Of a DNA stretch of 37,041 bases, positions 3,082 through 28,960 are shown piece after piece; position 1 is the stretch's first letter; each line of letters begins with the position of its first letter. The DNA is from a virus. Below the pieces are notes generated by a model, which was not told the DNA's origin, did not search any database, and saw only the letters and a program-made list of their open reading frames with translations. The DNA lies in IMG/VR virus record IMGVR_UViG_3300033143_001488, positions 1 through 37,041 of that record. The stretch is one strand, 5' to 3'. Made by a program: the position numbers and the translations under genes.

Positions 3082-3357
3082 TTATTTCTTCTGTTTAGTA
3101 CGAGTGTTAGTTTTTTTATCTATAATAAATTTATCGCCGTTTGCTTTTGTAATACTTATATCACCGCTTTTATTATTCACAATAAATTTATCACCTATAT
3201 CGGTATTTATATTAATATCATTGGTTTTTTTATCTACAGAAACACTTACATTTGAATAGTTTTCAATTTCATTATTAGTTATATCTAATGATAAAGATAA
3301 TTCTAAAGATGTAGCTACTCTTTTTGTTTCACTCAGAAGAATTTTCTTTGACATCAT
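3082..3357 (-). CDS. Small basic protein with internal repeats, unknown
   Basis: This 91-aa lysine-rich protein has no cysteine or tryptophan. Its second half repeats the unit GDKFIVNNKSGDIS / GDKFIIDKKTN (about residues 56-85), alternating strand-forming and charged residues. It starts with tandem ATG codons (3357 and 3354) and overlaps the C-terminal coding end of the receiver-domain gene by about 29 nt. I do not recognise it. The repeats suggest a short beta-solenoid or fibrous segment, which would suit an accessory virion protein, but no function is claimed. Confidence 0.65.
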   Translation of the reverse strand: MMSKKILLSETKRVATSLELSLSLDITNNEIENYSNVSVSVDKKTNDININTDIGDKFIVNNKSGDISITKANGDKFIIDKKTNTRTKQKK

Positions 3358-3826
3358 CTATTCTTCTTCTTCTTCGATTTACCCTACGTTCTTCAATTCT
3401 GTATGGTGTTTGGTAAAAACAGTTATTATTATTAGCACATAATATTAATCGTCTAAATGCAGCAGGAAAGTCTTCTTCTATCGGTTTACGATATACTAAT
3501 CCATGCTGCCATAATATATTATTAATTTTAGGATCTTCTATACTTGTTACAAATAATATAGGTATATTTGGATATTTTTCATGTATATCTCGTGCTATAC
3601 TAATACCACTAGCATCAGGTAATACAGAATCTAATATAATAGCTTCTATATTTTGTCCTTCACGATTTATTTCATATAGAGCAGCTACACTAGTATTCGC
3701 TACAATATATTCTACGTTTTCACGTTCTATAATAGCTTCCATATAATGTAATACTTCATGGTCTTCCTCAATAACGAGTATTGAACCATTTAGTTTACAT
3801 GGTGATAGTGTACCATTACATTCCAT
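3329..3826 (-). CDS. CheY-like receiver-domain protein
   Basis: Residues about 14-128 form a response-regulator receiver domain with all key positions. The acidic pocket is E20-E21-D22 (ILVIEED), the phosphoacceptor is D66 (AIILDSVLPDASG), the conserved Thr is T94 (ILFVTS), and the Lys-Pro is K114-P115 (VYRKPI). After the domain comes a short arginine-rich tail (RRVNRRRRR, about residues 148-156) and no DNA-binding or enzymatic output domain. The family accepts phosphoryl groups from histidine kinases. In this phage the gene lies among late minor virion or accessory genes. It could interfere with or tap a host two-component pathway, or act as a structural fold. The complete active site argues for retained phosphorylation; the partner is unknown. 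Confidence 0.85.
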   Translation of the reverse strand: MECNGTLSPCKLNGSILVIEEDHEVLHYMEAIIERENVEYIVANTSVAALYEINREGQNIEAIILDSVLPDASGISIARDIHEKYPNIPILFVTSIEDPKINNILWQHGLVYRKPIEEDFPAAFRRLILCANNNNCFYQTPYRIEERRVNRRRRRIDDVKENSSE

Positions 3827-5174: not shown

Positions 5175-5624
5175 ATGAAAAAAATTATCTTAACAACAGT
5201 TTTATCGTTAGCTGTAGCTTTTCCAGCTTTTGCGGAATTTAACAACCGCCTAGAAGGTAAAGTATTAACAAGCTATGGTTATAAACAAACAACTACATAT
5301 ACTGGTGATGCTACTGTAGCAATCGACGCAAATACATCTGATAATGTACGAGTTGCTGGTTCAACCATCAATATTAGTTATAGTATTGTTCGTAGTAATA
5401 ATGTGAAATCACGTACACCATATAACCAACGAGGTATTTTGGACACTCGCATTAAAATTGCAATCGAAGAAGCTATTGATAGTACATTTGCAAAATATGA
5501 TATTAACTATATCAAGAAAAATACACAAGATGTATTTGAAGAAGTGATGGATACTGCACAAGGTAATGCTGACTTCGCTAATCCTGGATTACGGATTAAT
5601 CTTACAAAACTATCTTTTAGATAG
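5175..5624 (+). CDS. Secreted (signal-peptide) protein, moron-like
   Basis: The 149-aa product starts with a classical Sec signal peptide: MKK, a hydrophobic core ILTTVLSLAVAF and a PAFA cleavage site, giving an expected cut after residue 20. The mature part of about 129 residues is Thr/Ala/Asn rich with no cysteine, so disulfides are not involved. I recognise no family. An AGGAG SD lies at 5163-5167. Two consensus sigma-70 promoters drive it, opposite in direction to the flanking late genes, and its 3' end overlaps the APS-kinase-like gene by 8 bp. This is the arrangement of a moron: an independently expressed gene for host alteration, such as periplasmic superinfection exclusion. That role is inference. 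Confidence 0.85.
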   Translation: MKKIILTTVLSLAVAFPAFAEFNNRLEGKVLTSYGYKQTTTYTGDATVAIDANTSDNVRVAGSTINISYSIVRSNNVKSRTPYNQRGILDTRIKIAIEEAIDSTFAKYDINYIKKNTQDVFEEVMDTAQGNADFANPGLRINLTKLSFR

Positions 5625-6033
5625 AAAAATCGGTAGCCAAGGACGGCTTAATACCAATTAATACATTTGATTTTCTATTATATACAAAATCAAATGTATT
5701 AATTGGTATTTCATATGGATAATCAACATGTTCTACTCCACCAGGAATATAAACAAAAATACAATTAGTAATTTCTTTTACTTTTTCTCTAAGAGATTCA
5801 TAAGGACATATTAAAGAAACTATAACAATCTTACCTTGTTTTGACAAATTTAATGCAAGTCTAGCAACTCTAAGATTATGTTCTTCCCTATCTTCTTTAC
5901 TTAATCCCAAATCAATTGATATTGATTCCCTCATTTCATCACCATCAAGTATTATCACATCATAATAAGAAGCGATAATATTTGCTAATGTGGTTTTACC
6001 TGAGCCTGAATTACCTGTTAACCAGATAATCAT
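5617..6033 (-). CDS. cysC-like: Compact adenylylsulfate (APS) kinase-like enzyme
   Basis: APS kinase phosphorylates adenylylsulfate at the 3'-OH with ATP to give PAPS, the sulfate donor of sulfotransferases. The 138-aa protein has the P-loop GNSGSGKT (residues 7-14), the LDGDEMR motif (29-35), the DREEHNLR motif (48-55, the dRxxNxxR signature) and VSLICPYESLR (72-82), all in family order. A YEIP segment near residue 106 matches the family's late PYExP. The lid region usually present before it (RDxKGLYKKA type) is absent, and the C-terminus is shortened. A perfect 25-bp inverted repeat lies in this 3' part. Its start shares a base with the methyltransferase-like stop (TAATG). Substrate could differ from APS, since other small P-loop kinases share these motifs. 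Confidence 0.8.
   Translation of the reverse strand: MIIWLTGNSGSGKTTLANIIASYYDVIILDGDEMRESISIDLGLSKEDREEHNLRVARLALNLSKQGKIVIVSLICPYESLREKVKEITNCIFVYIPGGVEHVDYPYEIPINTFDFVYNRKSNVLIGIKPSLATDFSI
5650..5710. repeat. Perfect 25-bp inverted repeat with 11-nt loop
   Basis: Bases 5650-5674 are the exact reverse complement of 5686-5710, and 5675-5685 form the loop. The structure lies inside the 3' coding part of the APS-kinase-like gene and 26 nt beyond the end of the convergent secreted-protein gene. No U-run follows on the plus strand, so it is not a standard terminator, though it could still block or stabilise both convergent transcripts. Confidence 0.95.
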
Positions 6034-6545
6034 TATAACATCTCACCTGTTGATAGGTTATATGTTGTATGAGTTTGTACACTTATTGAAATTCTTTCCC
6101 ATAATATCATGTAAGAGTTCTCTATCTCACTATCAATTAGATTATGTATAACTTCTTTAGCTAATTCTAATTGTTCACCTGTTTCGTCCATAAATAAATG
6201 GTACGTGTATATTGTGTTATTTTGTGGATCTTCTTTCACAACTTCTCTATAATCACCATTGATAAGTTTATATGTATCTAATGTTGCTTTTGCATCAGGG
6301 TCTATTTCAATAGAAGTGATGCTCATATCACTAGGAAGTTTTTCATATAGGTATTCATTTACACCATAATCAATTAGATTATTAGCTCCAGTATCCTCAC
6401 TCAATTGAGCAATTGCATCAGCTCTTTTTTGTACATCATTACCTTTACCGATATGTCCAGTAAGACCATCACCTTTATCTAGTGCTCTATAGCTTTTCCA
6501 AGAATCTCTACTCCACGGCTTTCTATAACCAAAATCTTTTTTCAT
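6033..6545 (-). CDS. Methyltransferase-like (Rossmann-type) protein, degenerate motif I
   Basis: This 170-aa protein has a pattern of class I SAM-dependent methyltransferases around residues 54-105. ANNLIDYGVNEYLYEKLP sits where motif I would be, SITSIEIDPDA matches the post-I acidic strand, and KLINGDYREVV matches motif II/III spacing. The glycines of the usual GxGxG are mostly missing, so cofactor binding is uncertain. The C-terminus is helical, then strand (YMILWERISISV). It may be a divergent methyltransferase or a related Rossmann domain. Position between sulfotransferase and APS-kinase-like genes, with a 4-nt overlap upstream (ATGA) and TAATG downstream, makes it part of the same module. 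Confidence 0.6.
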   Translation of the reverse strand: MKKDFGYRKPWSRDSWKSYRALDKGDGLTGHIGKGNDVQKRADAIAQLSEDTGANNLIDYGVNEYLYEKLPSDMSITSIEIDPDAKATLDTYKLINGDYREVVKEDPQNNTIYTYHLFMDETGEQLELAKEVIHNLIDSEIENSYMILWERISISVQTHTTYNLSTGEML

Positions 6546-7240
6546 GTTATTATTTTCTCATATCCAAATAAATCGAATAGTTTATCATCAGCTTTAATAA
6601 TTTTTTCAAGATCTTCTTTAGAAGCATTTTGTGAGGGATAACTAACATTATCTCTACTAAATTCTGTTACACCTAATTCTGGTAGTTTAAGCATCTCTAT
6701 AACAATATCTTTTTGATCTTCAATTCTGTATGTTGTTGATCCAAGAACTCCAATACCTTTGATTAATAGTTCATATAAAGAGCCATTAAACTTAATATCA
6801 CTGAGTTTTGTAAGATCGCCTATAATTGCTTTCCACCAATCGTATGTTCTATGACTTAACATTATATCTCTAAGAATTTCAAGTTTTTCTGGATTATTCT
6901 TAAAAAATCTAGGTAGATTAGTTGCTCTATCTATAAAAGTGTGAATATCAACAGTTACACCGTTCTCTAATAATAGAACTGCATTAAGTGGTGTGTTATA
7001 ATACGACATTTCCTTGTGTTTTTTACAACTCCATGTGTACCAAGATATGTACCATGTAAGCGGGTTTCTTACTAATGAAACAACTGGAAAGTGTTTGAAC
7101 TCATCTGGTAGAGTATTTAATGAATTGTGTGTGCTAACATACTGTATGTCATACTTTCTATATTTCTCTACGGTATTACCCATAGATGTGCCTGCACATT
7201 TATGTAAATGTAGAAAAATTGTATCATCTATTATTAACAT
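6542..7240 (-). CDS. Sulfotransferase family protein
   Basis: The 232-aa protein has the two PAPS-binding signatures. A P-loop-like 5'-phosphosulfate motif at residues 9-20 (FLHLHKCAGTSM) matches the H-x-K-x-A-G-T-S type of glycan sulfotransferases. A 3'-phosphate motif at 52-68 (PVVSLVRNPLTWYISWY) carries the conserved Arg58 and Ser66. The C-terminal half is helical. Such enzymes move sulfate from PAPS to hydroxyls or amines of carbohydrates, lipids or peptides. Length is near that of the compact sulfotransferases. It is the third gene of the five-gene cassette. The gap to the upstream gene is 10 nt, and it overlaps the next by 4. With an APS-kinase-like gene in the same operon, a phage-made PAPS supply is plausible. 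The acceptor is unknown. Confidence 0.85.
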   Translation of the reverse strand: MLIIDDTIFLHLHKCAGTSMGNTVEKYRKYDIQYVSTHNSLNTLPDEFKHFPVVSLVRNPLTWYISWYTWSCKKHKEMSYYNTPLNAVLLLENGVTVDIHTFIDRATNLPRFFKNNPEKLEILRDIMLSHRTYDWWKAIIGDLTKLSDIKFNGSLYELLIKGIGVLGSTTYRIEDQKDIVIEMLKLPELGVTEFSRDNVSYPSQNASKEDLEKIIKADDKLFDLFGYEKIIT

Positions 7241-7250
7241 TCAAATTCAT

Positions 7251-8000
7251 CTATAGAACCGTGATACCATTTTCTTCTATTATTGAATTGATATCTTGAT
7301 ATCTCTTTTCTAATGCTTCATTATATTGTTTCATAGTTTCTTTAAAAAGTTTTGAGCTATGTTTATCTTCTCTTCCCTGTCTAGGAACTTTAGAAATAAT
7401 TTCTTTTAAGTCAGAGTCATGTTGCAACCCAAGATGTTCAAATATTTTTCCTGTGTCATTTAAGATCGTATCTTTAGTGAGAATAACTAAATTCAACTTA
7501 CCTTCATTATGTAATTCCACAATTCTTTCAAAGTCATGCATCATTAGAATATTATCAACATTTTGGTGTAACTTTATACCATCATTCTCTAGTTTATTAA
7601 CTCCATAATAATGAGCAACACAATTAACCATCGCATCATTTATATCTTCTGAAGGTGTGAATTTACTTAAAGATTCTCTGTGTGTTATAGAATATATTCT
7701 TTCTTCATATGGTACAAGTGGAAACAATACTGTATATTTAATACCTTTCATTTGAGTGTTAAATGTTTCTATCGGTGATGGTACAAACTCTTCATTTACT
7801 GAAAGAAATGGCGCAACATAATATAGTTTACTATCATCATAGTGTTTATGTATATTTTTAATTTCGCTTAATCCATATTGGTTAGGCTTTTTAATTCTCC
7901 CTAAAAGAAAGTCAGAATAATGCTCATCTAATATTGGTTTAAAAATTGCAGATAATATTTTTGTATAAGATGCAATCGTATTATATTTTAATACTATCAA
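7251..8000 (-). CDS. Unknown cassette protein, possibly sulfotransferase-like C-terminus
   Basis: This 249-aa soluble protein starts at a TTG (8000) whose last bases overlap the radical SAM stop (TTGA), with an AAGGAAAG SD just upstream. I cannot assign a family. The C-terminal third (KLNLVILTKDTILNDTGKIFEHLGLQHDSDLKEII, about residues 168-202) reads like the typical sulfotransferase ending 'vlryEdL..dp...l..i..fLgl..d..l'. No clear PAPS 5' motif is visible in the N-terminal part. Histidine and tyrosine are frequent. It may be a divergent second sulfotransferase or a partner protein. It is translationally coupled to the radical SAM gene and precedes the recognised sulfotransferase. Confidence 0.7.
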   Translation of the reverse strand: MIVLKYNTIASYTKILSAIFKPILDEHYSDFLLGRIKKPNQYGLSEIKNIHKHYDDSKLYYVAPFLSVNEEFVPSPIETFNTQMKGIKYTVLFPLVPYEERIYSITHRESLSKFTPSEDINDAMVNCVAHYYGVNKLENDGIKLHQNVDNILMMHDFERIVELHNEGKLNLVILTKDTILNDTGKIFEHLGLQHDSDLKEIISKVPRQGREDKHSSKLFKETMKQYNEALEKRYQDINSIIEENGITVL

Positions 8001-9064
8001 TTACTTTCCTTTATCTGACTATATTGTGATTTCAATATTTCATATCCGTAAATTGATGATAGTAATTTATCTGGTGTTTGTACATACCCACCATTCTCAG
8101 TTATTGTAATTGTGTTTTTTATTTCTTGTTCTAATTTACCATTTCCCCAGAAATTTGAATCATCAAGAATATCTATATTTCCACATTCTATATATTCCCG
8201 TTTACCATTTCCCCAGAAATTATGTTCTAGTTTACTTTTTTTAATTTTAACTTCAAACTTATCACTAAGTTTATCAATTGCCATGTTAGATACCTTAATA
8301 TCTATATCATTGTTGAATGGAAATAACCCCCAGCCAACTAGTGCTGCTGAACCAATTAAAAGATAATCATCGCTTACATCTAAATCTATAAGTTCCTGAT
8401 AATGTTGGATTCTTTTTATATCAAATGATAATTCATGGTTTATGAAAGGAGGATACCATATTTTTGGATATGGGTAGTTTGGTTTATTACATATATGTTC
8501 ATCTTGTATAGTTTCACCAACTTTATATCCTACATGTTTATATTCATCACACATATGCCATGTTCCATTAGGTGATACATGCACTCCATGAGTTTTGTGT
8601 GGACAACCATCAAAACCAACTTTAGCTCTACCACCTTTCACTATTAAATTTTTAGGTGTATATCTAATTCCATATTTTCTAATGAAAAGATCTTTTCTAG
8701 GTTCAGTAAATAAATATTTAGTTCTCTCTTCTATTGGGTCATGATACTCATCTAAAGAGAGAACTACTGTAAGAATATAGGACTCACTATACTTGATAAG
8801 CTTAGAAGTAATATCATAATCGCTACCATTAGTTGTTATATGTGCTCTTGGAAACCCTTTTGCAAAGATTAAATCTATAATATCAAAAAGGTTTCTATGT
8901 AAAGTTGGTTCGCCGCCTCCAATAAATATTGTTTCATTTTTATCAGCAAACTCTAGATTATGTTCTACATCTTCTAGAGTCATGAAGTCTTTATTTCTTT
9001 TATGTGAGTTAGCTATACAGAAACTACATGCAAAATTACATTTATTTGTTATTTCTAGATACAA
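7997..9064 (-). CDS. Radical SAM protein fused to a nucleotidyltransferase domain
   Basis: Residues 1-200 form a radical SAM enzyme. The Fe4S4 triad is C9, C13 and C16 (CNFACSFC), the glycine-rich strand is FIGGGEPT (47-54), TTNGS is at 77-81, and a SPASM-like tail has C154, C172 and C192 around HVSPNGTWHMCDE. Residues 233-355 form a pol-beta-type nucleotidyltransferase: G238-S239 (LLIGSAALVGWG), D253-x-D255 (NNDIDI) and a third acid, D298 (GNIDIL), so the catalytic triad is complete. A 21-bp direct repeat in this part encodes NFWGNGK twice. The start is TTG at 9064, directly after the adhesin stop (TAATTG), with GGAG as SD. I know of no standard function for this fusion; peptide or glycan modification is inferred. 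Confidence 0.85.
   Translation of the reverse strand: MYLEITNKCNFACSFCIANSHKRNKDFMTLEDVEHNLEFADKNETIFIGGGEPTLHRNLFDIIDLIFAKGFPRAHITTNGSDYDITSKLIKYSESYILTVVLSLDEYHDPIEERTKYLFTEPRKDLFIRKYGIRYTPKNLIVKGGRAKVGFDGCPHKTHGVHVSPNGTWHMCDEYKHVGYKVGETIQDEHICNKPNYPYPKIWYPPFINHELSFDIKRIQHYQELIDLDVSDDYLLIGSAALVGWGLFPFNNDIDIKVSNMAIDKLSDKFEVKIKKSKLEHNFWGNGKREYIECGNIDILDDSNFWGNGKLEQEIKNTITITENGGYVQTPDKLLSSIYGYEILKSQYSQIKESN
8135..8221. repeat. Two 21-bp direct repeats inside the nucleotidyltransferase domain
   Basis: Bases 8135-8155 and 8201-8221 are identical and in the same reading frame. They encode the peptide NFWGNGK at residues 282-288 and 304-310, on both sides of the third catalytic aspartate strand. 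This could be a recent segmental duplication or a conserved beta-hairpin pair. Confidence 0.85.
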
Positions 9065-9958
9065 TTAAGTTCTCCAATAAATTCTAGCTGCGCCACTTTT
9101 TCCTGCTCCACCATAGTAACCAGAAATAACTTTCCCACAACCTCCTCCTCCAGCACCAATATTGATTGCAGCACTTCCGCTACTATCCGTTCCACCAGCA
9201 CCACCAATACCATAAGGGGATGAACCAGAACCACCACCACCACCAGAACCACCTGCATCACCAACATTAACCCCTTTTGCAGACACTTCTGGAACGTTCC
9301 AAGACTCGTCTAAGATATTATCCACCGCACCTGTGCCATATGTTGAAATCAAATTAGTTGTAAATTCTCCACCATCTCCACCATCTCCACCACCATTCAC
9401 ACCAGTACCACCATAACCAGTATTGGTGTTATCTCCATGTGAACCATAACCACCACCTAATGATGATATAGTTTTTACAGTGGTTGTGCCACCGCTATTT
9501 CCATCGGTTGCCTGAGTGGGGCCGCCACTACTACCACCAGTACCACCCGTCCCAACTGTTACTGTTACATTCTCGGCTGGAGTTACTACTACAGTTCCAA
9601 CTACAAATCCTGAAGCTCCACCACCGCCACCGCCTATACCATAGAATTGGCTGTAAGCATCACCATCAGTAACGCTACCACCACCACCACCACCACCACC
9701 ACAAGCAGCAACTAATATTTCAGTTACACCTGCCGGAACTACAAATGTTCCTGATGAATCGAATTGTTGTACGTTATTCCAGTATGAAATTTCTGTTGGA
9801 CTAACGTTAGATAATCCATAGAAATCAGATAGAGATAGAATACCACTAGCAGGAGCACCGCCAGCACCATAAAATTCACTCATACTATGTGGAGCAGTAT
9901 CTTCAAATTCTGTCGCTACATCTCCTATAGAAATTATTCCTGAAGCTGGCAAAGTCAT
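9065..9958 (-). CDS. Glycine-rich tail-tip adhesin (receptor-binding protein)
   Basis: The 297-aa protein starts with two copies of an attachment motif, PASGIISIGDVATEFEDT...SMSEFYG and PASGILSLSDFYG (residues 4-48). It then has an FDSSGTFVVPAGVTEILVAA strand segment, and from about residue 88 long polyglycine runs interspersed with short variable loops. Closely packed GGG/GGGG runs are the hallmark of T4-type gp38-like adhesins, in which polyglycine-II helices present receptor-binding loops. The C-terminus (GKSGAARIYWRT) is typical of the Gly-rich tail domain. The gene directly precedes the modification cassette, coupled through TAATTG, and its own start shares a base with the fibre stop (TAATG). 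Confidence 0.85.
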   Translation of the reverse strand: MTLPASGIISIGDVATEFEDTAPHSMSEFYGAGGAPASGILSLSDFYGLSNVSPTEISYWNNVQQFDSSGTFVVPAGVTEILVAACGGGGGGGGSVTDGDAYSQFYGIGGGGGGASGFVVGTVVVTPAENVTVTVGTGGTGGSSGGPTQATDGNSGGTTTVKTISSLGGGYGSHGDNTNTGYGGTGVNGGGDGGDGGEFTTNLISTYGTGAVDNILDESWNVPEVSAKGVNVGDAGGSGGGGGSGSSPYGIGGAGGTDSSGSAAINIGAGGGGCGKVISGYYGGAGKSGAARIYWRT

Positions 9959-12420
9959 TATTTAGTTTCCATATTTTCTACTTTCATATTTAATTCCTTT
10001 ATTGCTTCAACTAATAATCCTACCATATTTCCATATGCAAGTGATAACATACCGTTATCATTTTCACGTACAACTTCTGGTAAAATCTCTTTAACTTCTT
10101 GAGCAATCAAACCAGACTGTCTTTGTTTTGTATCAGTACGAGAATAAGTACAACCATTTAAACTTAAAACTTTATTAAGTGCGTCTGTTATATTATTTAT
10201 ATCTTTTTTTAATCGCTTATCAGAATACGCAGTTACATCACCACCAGCGGTTAAATCACCAGTGCTAGGATTAAATGTAAGCTTAGTGCTAGAAACTTTT
10301 GTAGCTAGATTTCCACTCGTACCAGATGCAAACTCTACATAGTGTGTTGCGTTTGTAGTTGTATCATTTGTAATTGCCGCAAGTGTTGACGCAGCCGCTG
10401 TTGCAGATGTTGTTAGTAAAGCAAGATTAGAAATAAAGTTAGCTTTTGTCTGTCTCTGTAGTTTTCCATTATCAAATTCAACAATAACATTAGTTGGATT
10501 AGTCGAAGCGGCGGCTAATGACATATCTATAGTTCTGCAAAAAATATCTCCACTAGCATCTCTTTGAGCAATTGTGTTAACTGTAGAAGATTTACTTGCT
10601 AATTGTCCATTTAAGTATTGTACTGATATTCCAGATGTTGGGCCGTCTACAGTCAGTAACGCTGTTAAAATTTCTGCTGCTGATTGATCCGCAGTTGCTC
10701 CAGCTTCAATACCTAATATAGATCTTGCTGTTGTTGCTGATAAAACTTCTGGGACACCTGTTGTTGCTGTATTTCTACCTATGAAAGAAGCGGTAGCTAT
10801 ATCAGCCATTTGTGCAAGTGAAATAGAGTTATTAGCTATACGTGCTGTAGGAAGTGTTCCAGATGTTAAGTTAGTAGCACTTTGATAAAATGATCCTTCT
10901 TGACCATCTAGTAAATCTGCGTCTAATGTAGAACCTGTACCATCATTACCTGCGTGCCAAGTTTTATTACCATTAATCTGTACTTCACCACCAATAGCAT
11001 TCAAGGATAATATTTCAGCAACACCATTGTTGCGACACATAATTTCATTGCCGTCCATAGCGATATTAACACCACTAGATATACCTATTTGGAAAGCATG
11101 TAATGTAGAAGCTAACGTAACATCAGTAATATTTTCTAATCGTAATACAGCAGCACTATCTATTGTTAAAATATCACCTGTGAATATATCATCAACATCA
11201 CTACGTAAAAATTGATCACTAGTTATACCACCAACAGTTACAGCAGAAGCTTCTTGATATGTAGGATTTAATCCTGCTCCATTACTTGTAAGAACATATC
11301 CTGTTGTACCTATTGCGGTAACATGTACTGGACCAGCACCGTTTCCTATTACAACACCATATTGACTTAGTGTATTTACTCCTGTACCACCATTAATAAC
11401 TTCTTTTACTAATGATTCAGTACTTCTAAATTGATTACCAAATGCTGATTCTGTAATATTTAAAAATGTACTAGCTTGTTTTATTATAATACGCCCAACC
11501 ATTACACCCAATTCATCTAATTGAGGTGGTAGATCTGTAGGTATTACTTCTATTTGAGCATCGTTAATAGAGTCATATTCATTTTGTCCATATAGCACAT
11601 ATAACTCATCTGAGTTAGAACCAATTTTTAAAAATACCCAATTAACAACATACTTACCAGCTGTGATTGTGTCTAATGTACCTGTACCTAAACCATCATA
11701 GTTTATATTACTAATAACAGTTGCACTAGTCTCTGTCCATCCACCAACACCATCTCTATAATAGTATTCAAAAGTATCAGCAGCAGCGGTATCATATGCA
11801 TTATGTGAATATTTGTTTAATCCACGATAGAATTCACCACTAAGTAATGATACCTTACGTGTGTTAGTACCACTTTCTGATATTTGTGTACCACCAATAA
11901 CATGCTTGAACCCTTCAGTATCAATTAACATATTATTAAGTTTATTATGTTGATCTACTATTTCACTAGTAGCTTCTAAAATAGTTAAATTATTTCCTTC
12001 ACGAGATATGATAGCAATTAAACATACATCATTATTATTAATTGTAGCAGATGTAACTATTGAACTTACAATAGGTGTACCAGCATTGTAATCTACGTAT
12101 ACATAGTTTAAATCGTTATCTGTTAGAGTAACATTTGGTTGAGCATCTATCGCAACACTAAATAATTCAGAACCTTCCGTATTATTAAGTCTTAATAATG
12201 CTTCACCTAATGCAACATCAATAGTACCATTTGCATTATCCGTGATCGCGCAACCGCTAAACACACCTGCACTATCAATATAATTAAATATATCTCGTAA
12301 TGTTTGTACTTTATCTGGTGTACCTACTTTATTAATATTAACTATATCAATAATATCATTAGTACGTGTACGCCAATCAAGGAATGTAGTTCCTAACGCT
12401 ACCTGTGGGATTGTAGACAT
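9958..12420 (-). CDS. Tail fibre protein with S74 chaperone domain
   Basis: The 820-aa beta-rich protein has a collar-like N-terminus (residues 1-170, with a STIPQVALGTTFLDWRTRTNDIIDIVN opening typical of virion-attached fibres). A long repetitive Thr/Ser/Gly shaft follows, with LLDGQ-type repeats, and then a C-terminal S74 intramolecular chaperone from Ser733: SDKRLKKDI, then SGLIAQEVKEILPE and GNMVGLLVEAIKEL. S74 domains trimerise the fibre and cut themselves off at the serine just before DKRLKK. It is therefore a trimeric receptor-binding or side fibre. A late-type octamer (12450-12457) lies 29 nt upstream. Downstream come the adhesin and the modification cassette. Confidence 0.9.
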   Translation of the reverse strand: MSTIPQVALGTTFLDWRTRTNDIIDIVNINKVGTPDKVQTLRDIFNYIDSAGVFSGCAITDNANGTIDVALGEALLRLNNTEGSELFSVAIDAQPNVTLTDNDLNYVYVDYNAGTPIVSSIVTSATINNNDVCLIAIISREGNNLTILEATSEIVDQHNKLNNMLIDTEGFKHVIGGTQISESGTNTRKVSLLSGEFYRGLNKYSHNAYDTAAADTFEYYYRDGVGGWTETSATVISNINYDGLGTGTLDTITAGKYVVNWVFLKIGSNSDELYVLYGQNEYDSINDAQIEVIPTDLPPQLDELGVMVGRIIIKQASTFLNITESAFGNQFRSTESLVKEVINGGTGVNTLSQYGVVIGNGAGPVHVTAIGTTGYVLTSNGAGLNPTYQEASAVTVGGITSDQFLRSDVDDIFTGDILTIDSAAVLRLENITDVTLASTLHAFQIGISSGVNIAMDGNEIMCRNNGVAEILSLNAIGGEVQINGNKTWHAGNDGTGSTLDADLLDGQEGSFYQSATNLTSGTLPTARIANNSISLAQMADIATASFIGRNTATTGVPEVLSATTARSILGIEAGATADQSAAEILTALLTVDGPTSGISVQYLNGQLASKSSTVNTIAQRDASGDIFCRTIDMSLAAASTNPTNVIVEFDNGKLQRQTKANFISNLALLTTSATAAASTLAAITNDTTTNATHYVEFASGTSGNLATKVSSTKLTFNPSTGDLTAGGDVTAYSDKRLKKDINNITDALNKVLSLNGCTYSRTDTKQRQSGLIAQEVKEILPEVVRENDNGMLSLAYGNMVGLLVEAIKELNMKVENMETK

Positions 12421-17746: not shown

Positions 17747-18538
17747 TTATATTTTCTCTTTTATTTTTTTAACTTTGTAATTCTTATATTTATCAACTTT
17801 TCCAGTGGATAGTTGACACATAGAAGGATAGTTTAATTTATTTTCTTTACAGTATTCTTTTAAATTGTTAATCTCTTCTACATTACCATCTGGTTTTGTG
17901 ATGATATATGATTTAATACCATTCTTCTGTCCTTTACGAGATTCACTAAGTTTTTTCTTAGCTGAATCAGACATAGGTACACCTTTATTCCAAGCTTTCT
18001 GTCCTTTATTAGATTCACTTATTTTCTTTCGTGTTTCTTTAGAACGTTGTTTACCCCAGTTAGGATGTTTATCACCTGATCTTAATCCCATTAGAGACTC
18101 ACTGTATCTTTGTTTAGCTTCTTCACTCCACTTCCAACCTTTATTATTGGATCTGTCTGTACCATACATAGGATTATTTTTACCAGAAACTTTTTTACTT
18201 ATACGCTTCTTTGTTTCTTCTGTATGAAATACAACTCCATCTGTACCACCTTCATCCATGTTATAACCACTATTGAAAGTGTTATATTCTACTACAAAGT
18301 GTTTCTCCATAGCTTTTAAATAATCATTATCTTCTTCTAATAAATTATATAATACATCAAATTTAAAATTATCAATACCATATTTTCTTATCGCTCTTTG
18401 TATCGCGCCATGAGGTATTCTAACAGTACTCTTTATTTTATAATCATACCATCTCTTTTGTACACCTCTACGAGTAAGTCCAACGTATTGCTTTTCGTTA
18501 ATCGTGTTGGTTATAATGTATATTTGATATTTAGACAT
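17747..18538 (-). CDS. GIY-YIG homing endonuclease with NUMOD3 repeats
   Basis: The nuclease core is YQIYIITNTINEKQYVGLTRR (residues 4-24), followed by a conserved Arg region (GVQKRWYDYK) and YGIDNFKFDVL. The tail holds several NUMOD3-type DNA-binding units (NNPMYG, SEEAKQRYSESLMG, GDKHPNWGKQRSKETRKKISESNKG, SAKKKLSESRKG). A last small helix-turn-helix-like stretch of NUMOD1 type follows (NLKEYCKENKLNYPSMCQLSTGK). Length and plan equal T4 Seg and I-TevI-like enzymes. It is inserted between the gp8-like wedge gene and the giant structural gene, abutting the latter with no spacing, and carries its own late promoter at 18561-18568. It is a selfish mobile element. Confidence 0.92.
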   Translation of the reverse strand: MSKYQIYIITNTINEKQYVGLTRRGVQKRWYDYKIKSTVRIPHGAIQRAIRKYGIDNFKFDVLYNLLEEDNDYLKAMEKHFVVEYNTFNSGYNMDEGGTDGVVFHTEETKKRISKKVSGKNNPMYGTDRSNNKGWKWSEEAKQRYSESLMGLRSGDKHPNWGKQRSKETRKKISESNKGQKAWNKGVPMSDSAKKKLSESRKGQKNGIKSYIITKPDGNVEEINNLKEYCKENKLNYPSMCQLSTGKVDKYKNYKVKKIKEKI

Positions 18539-28247: not shown

Positions 28248-28276
28248 TCAACACTATTATCTTGCAGGATAACAAC

Positions 28277-28960
28277 ATGACTACATCTATTTATCACTAC
28301 GTATATCGTATCACAAATACCCTTATCGGTAAACATTATTATGGTACTAGAAAATCTATAGGAAAAACTCCTAAAGAAGATCTTGGTATTAGATATTACT
28401 CTTCATCCTCTAATAAAAAATTCATATCAGAACAGAAAGCATATCCAGACCACTTTAAATATAAAGTAATTCGTACATTCTCCACTCGTGAATCTGCTGT
28501 AGAATTTGAAATATTTCTACATAACAAATACGATGTTAAGAATCATACTAAATTCTATAATGTATCCAATCAAGTGTCAACTGGATTCGACACTAGCGGT
28601 TTTGTTACTGTAAAGGATAAATCAGGAAATACCTTCAATACTCCAATGAGTGACCCTAGATACATATCTGGTGAATTAGTTCATATCAATACAGGGAGAT
28701 TAGCTAAGAGAGGTTCAGGATCAGGCTGCAATAGGGGAACATTCTTATATAACAATAAACAATATGATATATTAAAAGATTTAGCAGATGATATTAATTG
28801 TCCTATGGCATCAGTACATAGGTATTGCTGTACAGAGAATGATAGAGTAATAACACTACCTTCTTATTGCCGTTCCTCATTCCTGCAAACTCTTGGTAAT
28901 AGTGTAGACATCATAGGTAAATCATTCAAAGAGCTTGGATTTGGATTTATAGCAAGATAG
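28277..28960 (+). CDS. GIY-YIG homing endonuclease
   Basis: A 227-aa protein starting MTTSIYHYVYRITNTLIGKHYYGTRKS, whose YHYVYRITN/HYYGTRKS pair is the GIY-YIG core, followed by R-x-Y (LGIRYYSSS) and a Glu around SAVEFE. The recognition part has DKSGN...DPRYISGELVHINTGR, a HTH-like IKD/YDILKDLADDINCPMASVHRYC and a C-terminal SFLQTLG...ELGFGF. The same modules occur in the endonuclease at 588-1520, so the two are paralogues. The start is ATG at 28277, with AGGA at 28266. An upstream TTG at 28262 is less likely. It is free-standing next to gp4, which is intact, so no intron is needed. Confidence 0.9.
   Translation: MTTSIYHYVYRITNTLIGKHYYGTRKSIGKTPKEDLGIRYYSSSSNKKFISEQKAYPDHFKYKVIRTFSTRESAVEFEIFLHNKYDVKNHTKFYNVSNQVSTGFDTSGFVTVKDKSGNTFNTPMSDPRYISGELVHINTGRLAKRGSGSGCNRGTFLYNNKQYDILKDLADDINCPMASVHRYCCTENDRVITLPSYCRSSFLQTLGNSVDIIGKSFKELGFGFIAR

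Follow-up and report, generated by a model that had tools for sequence, protein, structure and literature searches.

A putative sulfation cassette with a lidless APS kinase homologue at the end of a phage tail-fibre gene cluster

Why would a T4-like myovirus carry a homologue of adenosine 5'-phosphosulfate (APS) kinase together with a sulfotransferase (ST) directly behind its tail fibre genes? The locus lies in IMG/VR virus record IMGVR_UViG_3300033143_001488, a fragment of 37,041 bases that was analysed in its entirety (hereafter the window) and whose gene content is that of the baseplate and tail region of such a phage. Five consecutive minus-strand genes encode a radical S-adenosylmethionine (SAM) protein of 355 residues (7997-9064), a 249-residue protein (7251-8000), the ST (232 residues, 6542-7240), a 170-residue protein labelled methyltransferase-like (6033-6545) and the kinase homologue (138 residues, 5617-6033). 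We hold with moderate confidence that this cassette is a sulfation operon of the phage, and we consider it likely that the kinase and the ST work together in the supply and use of 3'-phosphoadenosine 5'-phosphosulfate (PAPS). In the proposed mechanism the kinase would phosphorylate the 3'-OH of host-derived APS to give PAPS, and the Sulfotransfer_2-like enzyme would then pass the sulfonate on from PAPS to an acceptor. Preparation or decoration of that acceptor may also involve the radical SAM protein and the methyltransferase-like protein.

An APS kinase core without the cap

The original prediction of a compact APS-kinase-like enzyme was borne out by a match to Pfam APS_kinase (8.6e-25) and by an APS kinase fold. 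The protein contains the P-loop GxSGSGKT and the DGDxxR...DR signature of the APS kinase core, and it shares with CysC (PF01583, TIGR00455), its top match by both sequence and fold, the P-loop kinase fold, the DGD motif, conserved arginines and a C-terminal PYExP. Its AlphaFold2 (AF2) model (predicted local distance difference test score, pLDDT, 89.5) has the overall fold of an APS kinase, and each of the 50 listed Foldseek matches in the PDB is an APS kinase or an enzyme that includes such a domain. Viral contigs encode homologues with 53-59% identity to the window kinase across ~100 residues. A wider profile search, however, splits the family into true CysC proteins with the RDPKGLYKKAR..FTGI cap and a group, comprising the window protein and ~30 viral loci, that does not possess it. 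When a profile of 64 such kinases was compared with the PDB, 24 of the 25 matched proteins were APS kinases or PAPS/ATP-sulfurylase enzymes carrying an APS kinase domain; the alignment forms two blocks, and the best match skips ~22 residues of the PDB protein. Residues G12, K13, D30, G31, R35 and R49 are invariant across the 64 sequences (alignment A4). Judged from its sequence, the window kinase is thus a 'lidless' APS kinase from which ~22 residues of the substrate-binding cap are gone.

In a quick tree the window kinase falls in a phage group (17 rows, support 88) within a lidless clade of 72 rows (support 97). One row of this clade, L156, was labelled canonical by our motif rule, yet its sequence is without the cap. 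The clade extends beyond phages to Woese-, Peregri-, Peri- and other Patescibacteria, Nanoarchaeota and Diapherotrites. By contrast, the GenBank phage matches to the window kinase were all canonical and lid-bearing where examined.

Several features weigh against the assignment as an APS kinase. The cap (RDPKGLYxxAR..FTGI), which clamps the substrate in CysC, is deleted in the window kinase and its relatives, so that R418, K421 and F435, which are important in the histolytica APS kinase (PMC13213808), have no counterpart. In addition, Leu occupies the position at which APS kinases usually carry a stacking Phe, and the score of 87.9 bits falls below the 138.7-bit cut-off of the NCBIfam equivalog TIGR00455. 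We infer nonetheless that the lidless kinase would be catalytically active, with PAPS as its product, and the neighbouring genes bear on this reading.

Pairing of lidless kinases with sulfotransferases

As predicted, the window ST displays both PAPS motifs, the 5'-phosphosulfate-binding HLHKCAGTS and the 3'-phosphate-binding VRNPLTWYISW, and it passes the Pfam Sulfotransfer_1 cut-off narrowly (5e-5; 23.3 bits against 22). K14, R58 and S66 are invariant in the ST alignment (A5). With its HxxKxxGTS and RxPxxxxxS motifs the protein resembles Sulfotransfer_2 (PF03567) and is homologous to clear members of that family in other phages, among them the protein encoded at L062:9317-9919 (3e-8), which itself matches PF03567 at 6e-15. 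It is nevertheless very divergent, and only Sulfotransfer_1 passes the cut-off. Peptide patterns recovered no direct relatives of the ST or the 249-residue protein in viral contigs, and tblastn against phages returned nothing for these two, the methyltransferase-like protein or the C-terminal part of the radical SAM protein.

Lidless kinase genes overlap or abut ST genes in many other loci (L003, L011, L012, L015, L028, L031 and L032, and also L092, L093, L099, L124, L134, L148 and L156). In BLAST the paired STs separate into at least two groups with hardly any similarity between them, so that the pairing is more than the inheritance of one block. Varied ST families beside such kinases, in unrelated phages as well as in Patescibacteria and DPANN, are what would be expected of a donor/transferase pair. 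This recurrence supports the pairing proposed in the original prediction.

A second recurrent partner is a ~110-residue adenylyltransferase of the HxGH superfamily. By a rule of our own, it is fused or adjacent to 58 of 85 lidless kinases, as against 18 of 74 lid-bearing ones. This arrangement, which occurs in either order, recalls PAPS synthase and the bifunctional Sat-APS kinases; the partner of the lidless kinases is, however, a nicotinamide mononucleotide adenylyltransferase (NMNAT)-like domain rather than an ATP sulfurylase, and the window kinase is without one. No ATP sulfurylase or mini-adenylyltransferase was found among the open reading frames (ORFs) of the 37-kb fragment, so host APS would be needed. 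The pair had been described as self-sufficient in PAPS; its recurrence stands, whereas self-sufficiency was overstated and is unproven, the cap being absent as well.

Could the kinase instead make something other than PAPS? Together with an NMNAT-like partner it might produce another 3'-phosphorylated adenylyl or cytidylyl compound, such as an NAD- or CoA-like molecule or a phosphoramidate donor, from which the ST-like protein would transfer a group; the Campylobacter capsule phosphoramidate kinase offers a possible parallel. Apart from the missing cap, this alternative draws on the placement of the mini-adenylyltransferase near NMNAT by both NCBIfam and the PDB, and on cultured phages. A fusion of a divergent lidless kinase to the mini-adenylyltransferase is present in the Casjensviridae phages Bhz60, AhaSv and Clavibacter 33 and in Stenotrophomonas phage DLP_6 (L212-L215); none of the four has an annotated ST near the fusion, and in Stenotrophomonas phage Bhz60 it adjoins a NADAR-domain gene. 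The module may therefore have other uses, and another 3'-phosphoryl product is possible. Also unfavourable to the sulfation reading is the finding that just one of 26 viral loci with the window ST family has such a kinase inside the fetched flanks.

On the other side, the same partners occur with canonical enzymes. In L062 the gene for a Sulfotransfer_2 protein of the window ST family precedes that for a canonical, lid-bearing APS kinase by 10 nt. In L036 a tail fibre gene of 3,109 codons (PHROG 3.7e-8) is followed by genes for another Sulfotransfer_2 protein, for a canonical APS kinase and for the mini-adenylyltransferase. As the window ST family and the mini-adenylyltransferase are each found with a canonical APS kinase, PAPS is favoured over other 3'-phosphorylated donors.

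Cellular genomes point the same way, the ST families that co-occur with the kinases in Patescibacteria being of the PAPS type. Among 287 Patescibacteria genomes, a Sulfotransfer_1 protein is encoded in 17 and a kinase in 15; both occur in nine, where 0.9 would be expected (p=3e-9). An ST is present in five of the eight lidless-kinase genomes, compared with 12 of the 279 others (p=2e-5), and in four of the seven with a canonical kinase; each genome has one kinase match, never both kinds. These p-values are optimistic, since incomplete genomes, sampled from a phylogeny, underlie them. Sat-type ATP sulfurylase was detected in five of seven canonical-kinase genomes and in four of 37 lidless-kinase genomes; most of the lidless Patescibacteria and DPANN genomes (L125-L159, L165, L168) are without it, and about half of them have sulfotransferases. 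A few lidless genomes encode strong PAPS_reduct-family proteins of ~300 residues, which may be CysD.

The closest counterpart of the cassette is L098, where overlapping frames encode a radical SAM protein with a SPASM domain, an ST-methyltransferase fusion, two short proteins, an adenylyltransferase, a lidless kinase and a methyltransferase. The fusion (L098:3363-4559) is a single protein in which a sulfotransferase (PF13469) is joined to a methyltransferase (PF13649), beside the kinase. Both the radical SAM protein (6e-7) and the kinase (5e-33) are homologous to those of the window, and the L098 kinase belongs to the window's own group. Glycosyltransferase genes come next, and beyond them a weak match to a tail assembly chaperone and matches to tape-measure proteins. 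For the proposed search for the same five-gene order beside tail genes, this locus is the nearest result, with the same ingredients upstream of tail genes in a different order.

Taken together, the recurrent kinase-ST pairing, the co-occurrence in Patescibacteria, the occurrence of the ST family beside a canonical kinase and the L098 locus make PAPS supply and use the best reading, and we regard it as unlikely that the kinase is not an APS kinase and makes another product. Rhizobial Nod-factor sulfation by NodPQ-NodH provides a precedent in which genes for a dedicated PAPS supply accompany those for a sulfotransferase and further decorating enzymes. The window cassette differs in being phage-borne, in lying beside tail fibres and in having no ATP sulfurylase in the fragment.

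The other cassette genes and their coupling to the tail adhesin

Profile searches substantiated three of the five proteins, namely the radical SAM protein, the ST and the kinase. The first had been described as a radical SAM-nucleotidyltransferase fusion. Its radical SAM half is secure (Pfam Radical_SAM, PF04055, 8.9e-17, residues 4-116, with CxxxCxxC), whereas an MNT-like nucleotidyltransferase motif (GSAAL..NDIDI) in the C-terminal half is accompanied by no profile, PDB or phage match. Radical SAM matches in Vibrio siphophages have annotated neighbours that include neither an APS kinase nor a sulfotransferase. The methyltransferase label of the 170-residue protein was not confirmed: motif I, recognized by eye, is degenerate, reading DYGVNEY where class I methyltransferases have the SAM-binding DxGxGxG, and no Pfam family is matched at E<=1. 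Neither this protein nor the 249-residue one gave anything credible in Pfam, PHROGs or NCBIfam. Relatives of the latter were absent among the phages and viral contigs searched, and its single-sequence AF2 model has a pLDDT of 37.5. We considered whether it might be a second, degenerate ST on the strength of a C-terminal pattern seen by eye, and rejected this because hhalign against the ST profile gave a probability of 0.1%.

The gene layout agrees with the original prediction. All five ORFs are present. The first and third junctions are overlaps of 4 nt (at the first, the TTG start of the 249-residue protein meets the radical SAM stop), the second is a gap of 10 nt and the fourth an overlap of 1 nt. 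Directly upstream, and in frame with the radical SAM gene, is a glycine-rich tail adhesin gene (9065-9958, minus strand; Pfam Gly_rich_2 4e-14, PHROG tail 8.5e-17). The radical SAM TTG start (9064-9062) immediately follows the adhesin TAA (9067-9065), and a Shine-Dalgarno-like GGAG (9075-9072) is embedded in the final codons of the adhesin gene, at a distance of 7 nt from the TTG. By their overlaps and the short gap the five genes are translationally coupled. If the adhesin stop were read through (9062-9067), the product would be a fusion of the glycine-rich adhesin with the radical SAM protein.

A further possibility is that the genes are unrelated accessory cargo at a hypervariable tail-flanking site, with the transcript alone in common. 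The 249-residue and methyltransferase-like proteins, for which no relatives were found, would suit such a view, as would the fact that the exact set of five was found in no other locus; the stop-start overlaps and the recurrent kinase-ST pairing argue otherwise, and we think this explanation quite improbable.

Next upstream is a tail fibre gene with an endosialidase-type chaperone (Peptidase_S74; 9958-12420, minus strand). At the other end of the cassette, the 3' end of the kinase gene contains a near-perfect 29-nt inverted repeat (5650-5710; RNA fold -37.7 kcal/mol, z -9.6), which encodes an unusual C-terminal beta-hairpin of the kinase and sits between convergent genes. It is followed on the minus strand by a GC hairpin with a T run (5648-5635). 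The repeat is possibly a terminator, a recent rearrangement or an assembly fold-back. The converging gene (5175-5624, plus strand) encodes a 149-residue protein of no family with a signal-peptide-like start. Farther along, 3329-3826 (minus strand) encodes a protein with a response-regulator receiver domain (Pfam 5e-12); a protein near the lidless kinase of L002 also resembles a response regulator by eye. Likely GIY-YIG homing endonuclease genes at 588-1520, 17747-18538 and 28262-28960 interrupt tail and neighbouring genes; profile support exists for the first (PHROG 3e-39), the other two were recognized by eye and from their resemblance to ORFs of L004.

Genomic position, probable target and significance

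What, then, is modified? In other phages the module lies amid virion genes, near a major head protein or head-tail adaptor (L011, L031, L099, L124), terminase (L012) or portal gene (L028), and near tail genes in L098 and L036. A block of kinase, ST, small protein and repeat protein is common to L031, L032, L092 and L099; by eye the repeat protein is a spike-like beta-helix, and PHROGs gives it no name. Such positions agree with expression alongside virion genes and name no acceptor. For the window cassette, late expression together with the tail genes is suggested by the gene arrangement. Sigma70-like sites occurred at chance level. Matches to the T4-late TATAAATA did so too, with none inside the cassette, and were discarded as late promoters; on the predicted absence of a separate promoter the scans are thus uninformative either way.

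Probable acceptors are a glycan or a residue, carried either by the tail fibre or adhesin or by the host surface. The cassette may act on a host metabolite or the surface of the host instead of the virion, for example in superinfection exclusion or glycan change; to this reading we give appreciable weight without favouring it. The L062 and L098 copies lie amid glycan genes, with methyltransferases or glycosyltransferases around them. The VrlC-like protein of the window (1,683 residues) has matches in Pelagibacter phages Mosig and HTVC008M and in Nitratidesulfovibrio phage SRB7757. Mosig (EXVC030M) has a different modification island at a similar position past its VrlC-like baseplate and tail genes, including a MoaA-like radical SAM protein and a methyltransferase. 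That island has no annotated APS kinase or ST; an epimerase, an aminotransferase and a carbamoyltransferase are in their place. Against a host target, many copies of the module lie within head-tail gene clusters beside fibre or spike-like genes, although position alone names no target.

Beyond the original prediction, the analysis shows that the cap is missing, that the lidless clade is broad, that a mini-adenylyltransferase is a frequent partner and that the module recurs in phage late regions. We found no paper in the open-access literature on a phage module of APS kinase and sulfotransferase, and such a compact module for sulfation among late phage genes has apparently not been described so far. 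More tentatively, phages and ultra-small bacteria and archaea might share an undescribed compact pathway made up of an NMNAT-like minimal ATP sulfurylase (~110 residues), a lidless APS kinase and an ST, which in such phages would sulfate virion tail components or associated glycans; this broader proposal is speculative. The cultured phages with kinase-adenylyltransferase fusions provide a culturable test case. If the sulfation reading is true, sulfation would join the known modifications of phage tails and surfaces, a minimal APS kinase without a substrate cap would be defined, and Patescibacteria that have sulfotransferases and no detected Sat-type ATP sulfurylase would gain a candidate route to PAPS.

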